This document shows positions 13,325 to 17,054 of a stretch of DNA of 25,524 nucleotides, in pieces. Numbering within the stretch: position 1 is the first letter of the stretch; each line of letters starts with the position of its first letter. The position numbers and the translations under genes were made by a program. The stretch comes from a virus: the IMG/VR virus record IMGVR_UViG_3300037882_000755, positions 1-25,524 of that record; one strand, given 5' to 3'. The notes beneath the pieces were generated by a model, which saw only the letters and a program-made list of their open reading frames with translations, was not told where the DNA came from and made no database searches.

Positions 13325-13581
13325 AGCATCACCGCCATAACCAGCAGCGGCGCGGTAATCGCCAGCCCTGCGATCACAATGTCGGCAACCCGCAAAGTCC
13401 GAACAACACCACGAACAGTTGCCCGCTCTGGCAGCGCGTCCGGCGCGCGGTATGGATAGCCAACGCGCACAAAATGCAGCGGCTGTTCAGGATGGCGCGG
13501 CGCTTGCATTTCGTGCAGTGCGTCCGAGTGTGACGCGCGGTTGAAACGCTCTAGGCGGTCAAGGTGATTGGCGATGCTCAT
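13321..13581 (-). CDS. Small C-terminal membrane-anchored protein, 86 aa
   Basis: 86 residues starting at ATG 13581, which overlaps the stop of the octapeptide-repeat gene (ATGA). The N-terminal 60 residues are soluble, His- and Arg-rich (NHLDRLERFNRASHSDALHE, then basic RAPDALPERATVRG). Residues about 65-86 form one hydrophobic segment (ADIVIAGLAITAPLLVMAVML) long enough to span a membrane, giving a tail-anchored topology. It might act at the host inner membrane. It is too early in transcription and has the wrong domain order to be called a holin. Confidence 0.66.
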   Translation of the reverse strand: MSIANHLDRLERFNRASHSDALHEMQAPRHPEQPLHFVRVGYPYRAPDALPERATVRGVVRTLRVADIVIAGLAITAPLLVMAVML

Positions 13582-14318
13582 TGCTTTGCCTCCACCAGTT
13601 TGCCTTTGGCGTCGGCCTTGTAAGGCGTGTTTGGCTTGATGCCGCCTTCGCCAACATATCCGATGGCGAATTTGTAACGCTTGCCATCCCACCATTTGAC
13701 CATGACAGCGCCGCTGTCGCCAGCCGTCGCAGTGCCGTAGTAGCCAGCCGTCGCAGTGCCTCTGTCGCCAGCCGTCGCAGTGCCGCTGTCGCCAGCCGTC
13801 GCAGTGCCGCTGTCGCCAGCCGTCGCAGTGCCGTAGTAGCCAGCCGTCGCAGTGCCTCTGTCGCCAGCCGTCGCAGTGCCTCTGTCGCCAGCCGTCGCAG
13901 TGCCGCTGTAGCCAGCCGTCGCAGTGCCGTAGTAGCCAGCCGTCGCAGTGCCGTAGTGGCCAGCCGTCGCAGTGCCGTAGTGGCCAGTAACACCGCACAA
14001 AGATGCCAGCGCGGTTGTAATTTCAATTTGCGTTCCGGTCGCCACTTCACAGCGGGGGAATTTGACCTTGCCGCCCAGATCGACATATTCGTCGAAGCCG
14101 ACAAGCTGCCACCGAACATCGCCGGTATTGACCAGACCAGCATCACCTAGCCCGTTTAGCAGTGCGTGGAAGCCATTCCCGCATTTCTCGGTCGGCTTCC
14201 AATCGGGACATTCGACAGCCCCCTTCAATGGCCACACAAAACCACCCTGCGACGTGCCATCGGCGGAACAGGTGCGCAGACCGTAGTGTTTCCACTTGCG
14301 CTTTAGTTTGACAGTCAT
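13578..14318 (-). CDS. DUF7666-like protein with octapeptide repeats
   Basis: 246 residues from ATG 14318 (GGAGG upstream, ATGA overlap with the preceding gene). Residues about 8-100 resemble the DUF7666 phage family: GLRTCSADGTSQGGFVWP, APDW-like CPDWKPTEKCGNGFHALLNG, then VGFDEYVDLGGKVKFPRCEV. Next comes a run of 8-residue repeats of form GTATAG-x-x (about residues 111-200), a likely beta-helix or beta-roll. After it a short domain (VKWWDGKRYKFAIGYVGEGGIKPNTPYKAD split around Gly) ends the protein. The repeat number is probably variable. A binding surface or decoy role is conceivable; no activity can be assigned. Confidence 0.75.
   Translation of the reverse strand: MTVKLKRKWKHYGLRTCSADGTSQGGFVWPLKGAVECPDWKPTEKCGNGFHALLNGLGDAGLVNTGDVRWQLVGFDEYVDLGGKVKFPRCEVATGTQIEITTALASLCGVTGHYGTATAGHYGTATAGYYGTATAGYSGTATAGDRGTATAGDRGTATAGYYGTATAGDSGTATAGDSGTATAGDRGTATAGYYGTATAGDSGAVMVKWWDGKRYKFAIGYVGEGGIKPNTPYKADAKGKLVEAKQ
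13719..13982. repeat. 11 x 24-bp in-frame tandem repeat
   Basis: Eleven consecutive 24-bp units begin at 13719 and recur every 24 bp through 13959. Each has the 18-nt core GCCAGCCGTCGCAGTGCC, identical in all eleven copies, followed by six variable bases (GTAGTA, TCTGTC, GCTGTC, GCTGTA or GTAGTG). A degenerate twelfth unit starts at 13983. Read on the minus strand it encodes the GTATAG-x-x repeat. Confidence 0.97.
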
Positions 14319-14914
14319 TGCTTTGCCTCCTGTTTGGTGGTCATCGCCCATCCCATGCGCTTTGCATGAGCCTTGGCGGCAAGCATGGCGTCGGCCTGTT
14401 CTTCGCGGCCCACGCGCTTCCCAATGTGCTTGATCGCGTCAGCCAAAGTCATCCAACGGCACCCGCCGCCAATGAACGCCACACCATCAACGCAAGCGAG
14501 CGTAAGGCGATAGCCGTCGGCATAGCCAAGGTCGCGGACAACAGAGCAATCCGCCCATTCGCCGATGAACGCCCCTTCGCCGATGCGCGCCCCTTCGCCG
14601 ATGAACGCCCCTTCGCAGATGCTCGCCCCTTCGCCGATGCTCGCCCCTTTGCAGATGAACGCCCCTTTGCAGATGCGCGCCCCTTTGCCGATGCTCGCCC
14701 ATTCGCCGATGAACGCCCCTTCGCCGATGAACGCCCCTTCGCCGATGCGCGCCCCTTCGCCGATGAACGCCCCTTCGCCGATGCGCGCCCCTTCGCCGAT
14801 GGACGCGCGCACGAGTTCGGGGATTGGGAAACCCAGCTTCTCGAAGTGGGGGCGGGCCAAAGTGATAAATCCGTTCAGCCATTCTTCGCGCGTCTTGGTC
14901 AGGGTCATGGTCAT
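14315..14914 (-). CDS. Hexapeptide-repeat (left-handed beta-helix-like) protein
   Basis: 199 residues (ATG 14914; the ATG at 14908 has better spacing from GGAG). The N-terminus EEWLNGFITLARPHFEKLGFPIPELV is followed by 14 hexapeptides of form IGEGA-[FRS] (about residues 39-122), matching the left-handed beta-helix consensus used by hexapeptide acyltransferases, but with no catalytic His loop visible. The C-terminal domain (SVVRDLGYADGYRLTLACVDGVAFIGGGCRWMTLADAIKHIG region, here split by repeats) resembles a phage domain that recurs after pentapeptide- or hexapeptide-type repeats. It overlaps the octapeptide gene by 4 nt and shares its Lys/Gln-rich ending. The function is unknown; a DNA-mimic or binding rod is one possibility. 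Confidence 0.75.
   Translation of the reverse strand: MTMTLTKTREEWLNGFITLARPHFEKLGFPIPELVRASIGEGARIGEGAFIGEGARIGEGAFIGEGAFIGEWASIGKGARICKGAFICKGASIGEGASICEGAFIGEGARIGEGAFIGEWADCSVVRDLGYADGYRLTLACVDGVAFIGGGCRWMTLADAIKHIGKRVGREEQADAMLAAKAHAKRMGWAMTTKQEAKQ
14549..14800. repeat. 14 x 18-bp in-frame tandem repeat
   Basis: Fourteen contiguous 18-bp units from 14549 to 14800 encode hexapeptides IGEGAR/F/S, with variants IGEWAS, IGKGAR, ICKGAF, ICEGAF and IGEWAD. Differences between copies are nearly all single non-synonymous changes at the sixth codon or at the G/E positions, so the copies are recent. Confidence 0.95.
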
Positions 14915-16559: not shown

Positions 16560-17054
16560 ATGGGTACCCCCGAAGTTCCTTTTGACGAAGATATCGCAGA
16601 CGACATCCTTGGGTGTCTCGCTGCCGGTATGCCGTTGACGAAGTGGCACAAGTCGCGCTTCGGTATCGTGTCACTGATGACGGTTTATCGTTGGCTTCGG
16701 ATCAACCCGGATTTCGCAGAGGCATATGCCAGAGCGCGGGAGGATCAAGCCGACACTTACGCGGAGCAGGTCGTCGGGATTGCTGATGATCTCTACGACA
16801 CCGGCAAAACCGTTTTCGATGCTCGCGTGGCCGAGGCCAGAATAAACTCGCGCAAGTGGGCAGCAGAAAATCTCAAGCCGCGCACCTACGGTAAACGTGT
16901 AGACGTGACATCGCTCAACGATCACACACTATCCAAGACACCGGACGAAGCCCGAGCGATACGCGCAGCCGCGATCCTCAAAATCGTGCAGGACCGCACG
17001 GCGCTGACCTCTGAAGACGCCGAGATCGTCCGCGCGTCGCCACTGTTCGACTGA
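16560..17054 (+). CDS. terS: Small terminase subunit, Sf6 gp1-like
   Basis: 164-residue DNA-recognition subunit of the packaging motor. The N-terminus follows the Sf6-type pattern: DEDIADDILGCLAAGMPL, an HTH in KSRFGIVSLMTVYRWLR (about 33-49), NPDFAEAYARAREDQADTYAEQVVGIADD (about 51-79), and ARINSRKWAAENLKPRTYGKRVDV (about 93-116), which matches the RxDxRKWxxxxxxPxxYG oligomerisation segment of that family. The protein ends RASPLFD, the tail also seen on DUF2815, DUF2800 and the HNH-like protein. The ATG at 16560 has only a weak GGA upstream. The stop overlaps the large terminase start (TGATG). Confidence 0.88.
   Translation: MGTPEVPFDEDIADDILGCLAAGMPLTKWHKSRFGIVSLMTVYRWLRINPDFAEAYARAREDQADTYAEQVVGIADDLYDTGKTVFDARVAEARINSRKWAAENLKPRTYGKRVDVTSLNDHTLSKTPDEARAIRAAAILKIVQDRTALTSEDAEIVRASPLFD

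Follow-up and report, generated by a model that had tools for sequence, protein, structure and literature searches.

Tandem octapeptide arrays of the Bbp36/VR2 phage gene family: identical cores, and variable residue pairs that appear to be kept diverse by selection

Background

How can a tandem array hold eleven copies of an 18-nt core identical to the letter while the two codons beside each core differ from copy to copy, and never synonymously? The locus that raises this question lies in a virus record with tailed-phage genes, analysed here at its full length of 25,524 bases (the window). An earlier note, made from the sequence alone, had read the pattern as selection on two exposed residues per turn of a beta-helix, with recent expansion of the array by slippage or recombination. 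We have compared the array with its relatives in viral and bacterial DNA, modelled its product, and weighed selection against neutral and other explanations.

Results

The array and its gene

On the minus strand the core reads GGC ACT GCG ACG GCT GGC in 11 of 11 copies. Counting the one beyond each outermost core, the 11 cores are accompanied by 12 pairs, in order HY HY YY YS DR DR YY DS DS DR YY DS. Codon 1 is TAC, GAC or CAC and codon 2 is TAC, AGC or AGA, giving five kinds of pair and no synonymous difference. This confirms the central observation of the earlier note, whose coordinates (13719-13982) cover the same array with the pair placed before the core; the core-first register is used in Table 1. 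Tandem Repeats Finder gives the array a score of 425 with 11.3 copies, so it is not a product of chance.

Table 1. Positions in the window of the array, its gene and neighbouring features
Feature	Position	Strand	Remarks
Array gene, Bbp36/VR2 family	13578..14351	-	257 aa, or 246 aa from an inner ATG at 14318
C-terminal cap domain	13581..13712	-	after the last pair (GAVMVKWWDGKRYKFAIGYVGEGGIKPNTPYK...); conserved family-wide
11 tandem 24-bp units	13713..13976	-	invariant 18-nt core (GTATAG) and variable 6 nt (two codons)
Degenerate first unit	13977..14000	-	CGVTG + HY; N-terminal edge of array
N-terminal domain, DUF7666-like	14007..14285	-	residues about 23-115
Neighbouring gene	14315-14914	-	14 hexapeptide units (IGEGAx, 18 nt)
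Terminase small subunit	16560-17054		

The product consists of an N-terminal DUF7666-like domain, the octapeptide array and a C-terminal cap domain, in that order. In the N-terminal domain the F, W, DW, CG.G.H and K.K motifs are invariant in 32 relatives. The DUF7666 profile (PF24703) scores the window protein at 24.8 bits, under its gathering cut-off of 27, and the BFVD structural neighbours of the protein carry the name DUF7666. After the array comes the cap motif WWD...YVGE(D)GI, a feature of the Bbp36/VR2 family. The gene sits in a group of small genes with a primase/VapE-like gene on one side and the terminase on the other; head-tail connector and GP7 capsid protein genes are also found in the window. 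Over 13581-14318 (minus strand) the repeats and cap weakly match E. coli YdhT in NCBIfam (21 bits; cut-off 300), and YdhT is possibly a chromosomal relative.

The neighbouring gene has a repeat array of its own, in which all differences between units (G/C, E/K, G/W, and R/F/S/D at the sixth codon) are non-synonymous. Three other contigs (L156, L158, L160) have similar hexapeptide arrays with few silent changes. Over its first ~45 residues the hexapeptide protein resembles a 219-aa protein of a sister phage (L162:1457-2116), which has an HExxH-type motif (THELVH, SprT-like by eye); judged from this match, it is as if a repeat array had replaced the remainder of an L162-type gene. The large terminase of the same sister phage (L162:6849-9461) contains a putative intein, recognised by eye, with an insert from CVGAGTLVWMADG to HYITNQGFINRN.

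Membership in the Bbp36/VR2 family

A relative found by tblastn in phage records is Bbp36 of the Bordetella phages BPP-1, BMP-1 and BIP-1 (44% over 79 aa, residues 25-103, E 6e-10 against BPP-1), in which the array is annotated "variable region 2; VR2". No close DNA relatives of the window region were found among phage records. Going by protein similarity, the window gene is homologous to bbp36 and its kind of array is already known as VR2. PMC2884959, with reference to Liu et al. 2004, describes VR2 as a 24-bp element made of a 19-bp repeat with one of three 5-bp spacers, present in 9-20 copies depending on the isolate and not involved in tropism; bbp36 is reported there as dispensable. VR2 had been recorded as dynamic in 2004. 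The records of BPP-1, BMP-1, BIP-1 and vB_BbrP_003 all show identical cores and an array proper built from the pairs TATCGC, GAATCC and AATTAC, whose numbers and orders differ among the four phages; in three of them the final unit, next to the cap, is GAGAAA.

The window gene and Bbp36 have in common the N-terminal domain, 24-bp GTATAGxx units with identical cores, few two-codon types, C-terminal cap homology and a non-structural location. They differ in the silent codons of the core, in the phage genome that carries them, and in the pair alphabet (HY, YY, YS, DR and DS in the window, YR, ES and NY in Bbp36). Scanning viral DNA for a GTATAG-type pattern yields at least 119 stretches, and the same pattern occurs in 21 stretches of bacterial genome contigs from several phyla. 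Full-length members share the N-terminal domain and the cap. VR2 is thus the signature of a gene family present in many viral contigs and several bacterial phyla. In one contig (L076:6989-7582) an in-frame deletion has removed most of the N-terminal domain, with array and cap kept.

Array turnover and gene presence

Four contigs (L056, L075, L087 and L092) show zero differences in the 420 nt before and the 135 nt after the array, and their arrays of 8, 19, 4 and 8 units differ in pair set and order. A fifth, L072, agrees with them over the 420 nt before the array, and its array differs too. These flanks are the array gene's own ends, the wider contigs being mostly about 92-98% identical. In related phages, then, the array is re-sorted far faster than the remainder of the gene. 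Recent turnover by recombination or slippage is supported, as genes that are identical outside the array, over the stretches compared, carry wholly unlike arrays. Copy number and variable codons, which the earlier note proposed comparing among related phages, both vary between isolates in the BPP-1 group and in the Pseudomonas-type group; the window phage is represented by one contig.

In the surroundings of the gene these five contigs match Pseudomonas aeruginosa phages. Almost all of those phages are without it, and in PAN70 a different gene occupies the slot. In L162, a sister contig of the window phage with about 80% identity at the DNA level over terminase and portal, the corresponding interval likewise contains no such array. 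The gene is therefore accessory. In the relatives sampled, array genes lie near methylases, nucleases, helicases, a recombinase or a ParB-like gene, neighbours that fit an intracellular accessory role and not a part of the virion; the array protein is neither a tail nor a receptor protein. It has no match among the PADLOC defence families.

Predicted structure

AlphaFold2 (32 sequences) returns a confident beta-solenoid with a mean pLDDT of 89.7, rising to about 95-97 over most repeats. In the model TAT forms a strand and each G-x-x-G a turn, which places every variable pair in a turn; the structure prediction that the earlier note called for thus places all the pairs where exposure is predicted. 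Foldseek against the PDB gives no match at E<=0.001, and a second fold comparison gives middling matches (the CAP C-terminal domain best at Z 6.0, MinC at Z 5.5), for which reason no function is drawn from the fold.

Selection on the pair

The sample consists of 98 arrays from viral contigs among the matches listed, ascertained by the GTATAG pattern. Cores are letter-identical in 60 of the 98, and the pair varies in all 60 and in every array. Mean pi is about 0.02-0.05 at four-fold sites of the core, versus 0.17-0.54 per base over the six pair bases (98 arrays listed), and pair diversity exceeds that of core silent sites in 54/54 core types among the matches listed. Ordinary synonymous drift, which the earlier note had set against its own reading, is absent from most arrays (the 60 perfect ones among the 98 listed) and present in a minority (L003 and L004, for example).

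The plainest alternative is a neutral minisatellite, in which slippage or unequal exchange homogenises the copies and the solenoid tolerates anything at two codons. Arrays expand and contract freely, the pair lies in turns, where weak constraint is expected, and bbp36 is reported as dispensable (PMC2884959), all of which would suit such an explanation. It predicts, however, that pair diversity should equal that of silent core sites, and the observed value is about ten times higher. The within-array ratio of pair to four-fold core diversity is 10.7 (arrays among the matches listed), against at most 0.92 in simulations of neutral concerted evolution (duplication and deletion, with or without homology-dependent exchange that requires core identity; edge units left out). 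Perfect-core arrays are polymorphic at the pair in 57/57 cases, against about a sixth to a third of simulated arrays with comparable core diversity, and more than one pair type is kept in all arrays among the matches listed. At the pair, synonymous changes fall short of expectation about fourfold (3.4% and 5.0%, where 14.7% and 20.7% are expected). The pair/core ratio largely refutes the neutral minisatellite, which we regard as unlikely. Its rejection takes mutation to be equally frequent at core and pair (a mutator aimed at the pair, combined with amino-acid selection, would look alike), and the tests count arrays or core types as independent though some phages are related. There is strong evidence that diversity at the two residues is maintained, and the earlier claim of selection on two exposed residues per turn is supported, with neutral turnover rejected and the variable pairs found in turns of the solenoid model.

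Just 5 of the 98 arrays listed contain every combination of two codon-1 with two codon-2 alleles, so the pair is a linked unit and free recombination within it is ruled out. The alphabet YR/ES/NY is common to BIP-1, L076 and L136 despite different silent codons. The order of units is close to random, with no significant autocorrelation in 79 arrays among the matches listed; such an order fits shuffling and gives no code, and assembly from short reads may select for arrays that lack long internal repeats. In eight closed records lags 2, 4 and 6 have z of 1.9, 1.3 and 2.0, and lag 1 has -1.9, a hint of a two-unit period that is too weak to claim. Charge balance between pairs was considered and rejected, acidic and basic second residues co-occurring 23 times versus 21.6 by chance.

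Other explanations

Core identity might instead be kept by a function at the DNA level, such as a binding or recombination site, with the pair a mere spacer. The perfect cores in 60 of the 98 arrays listed agree with this, as does the description of VR2 in PMC2884959 as 19-bp repeats with 5-bp spacers. But from phage to phage the silent bases of the core vary almost without restriction (pi 0.63 between core types, nearly saturated; 54 types among the matches listed), the spacers keep the frame and alphabets at the amino-acid level, and the N- and C-terminal protein domains are conserved. The probability of this explanation is low.

A collapsed or scrambled assembly of the array in the window contig is about as improbable. 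The window is a metagenome contig and, in related records among the matches listed, 49 of 104 arrays are no farther than 150 bp from a contig end versus 1.4 expected, so assemblers do break at arrays; little weight should be given to the copy number or order read from any single metagenome contig, including the window. The same pattern is nevertheless present in finished or complete records (the BPP-1 group, L138, L142, L144 and L153), and mis-ordering alone cannot yield different pair sets. A GTATAG array stands at both contig ends in L015/L036, L033/L069, L039/L055, L044/L057, L068/L104 and L080/L093; these are probably circular genomes that assembly has cut open within the array.

Least likely of all is a dedicated mutator (a diversity-generating retroelement, DGR, or other targeted system) that rewrites the two codons, for although BPP-1 carries a DGR and the variation is sharply limited to 6 of 24 bases, neither the window nor any of 14 related viral records (possibly fragments) shows a reverse transcriptase (PF00078), the differences include T, G and C and multi-base changes and are not limited to adenines (core adenines are invariant in the window), array length and order change, unlike in mutagenic retrohoming, and silent pair changes are rare, a DGR in particular being rejected on the first two counts.

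Discussion

The reading we prefer, at a probability of roughly 0.6, is that identical cores recombine and so re-sort a solenoid, with selection keeping its corner residues diverse. The gene is accessory and non-structural, and its predicted product is a beta-solenoid in which each 8-residue GTATAGxx unit forms a short strand (TAT) and an exposed turn (G-x-x-G). The identical 18-nt cores would offer homology for frequent unequal recombination or slippage, and unequal exchange would re-sort, copy and delete units without letting the cores diverge (concerted evolution). Each pair of codons would move as a linked cassette, held diverse by selection at the amino-acid level. We infer recombination as the engine and selection as the keeper of the observed diversity. 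The pairs most likely form the contact surface of the rod, to judge from the selection test and from a register match with ice nucleation proteins (see below); this surface could serve self-assembly, as the corner positions of those proteins may, or meet a variable host or phage partner.

More tentatively, and at decidedly longer odds, the array could be a diversity generator independent of reverse transcriptase, in which core recombination re-sorts corner pairs into a private binding or self-assembly code for each lineage, under selection from a variable partner in the host or a rival phage. The likeness to modular recognition repeats drawn in the earlier note is possible, but the pairs follow no set sequence and the gene is found with replication or early genes and not with those of the tail. 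Should the pair prove to be a recognition surface, phages would possess a route to protein diversity that needs no retroelement, and the comparison names loci and phage pairs where the question can be tested. The VR2 kind of array is known; the family-wide test of its diversity is new.

Comparison with known systems

DGR targets such as Mtd VR1 resemble the array gene in being phage genes with confined amino-acid hypervariability. The array differs from them in being tandem, in its changing copy number, in changes that are not adenine-directed, and in having no reverse transcriptase found with it.

In ice nucleation proteins (INPs, e.g. PbINP) the octapeptide AGYGSTQT/AGEESSLT resembles the array in the register AGxxGTAT, and both have TxT strands. 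Positions 3, 11 and 12 of the INP consensus AGYGSTQTAGEESSLT face outward, and positions 3 and 11-12 have been proposed for dimerisation and electrostatic assembly (PMC9418140, PMC10727499); these outward corner positions match the variable pair of the array in register. In contrast to INPs, the array has an 8-residue unit, TAT on every strand, far fewer repeats and hypervariable corners. Membership in the ice nucleation family is rejected, the Pfam profile giving no match at E<=1.

A further parallel is found in the mycobacteriophage proteins Tweety gp54, Che8 gp57 and PMC gp51, whose tandem tetra- or octapeptide repeats vary in copy number, with variation confined to two residues; a gene of this type is missing from a close relative, and selection for variation was proposed by the authors (PMC2884959). 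Those repeats have Ala-Ala as their first two residues where the array has GTATAG.
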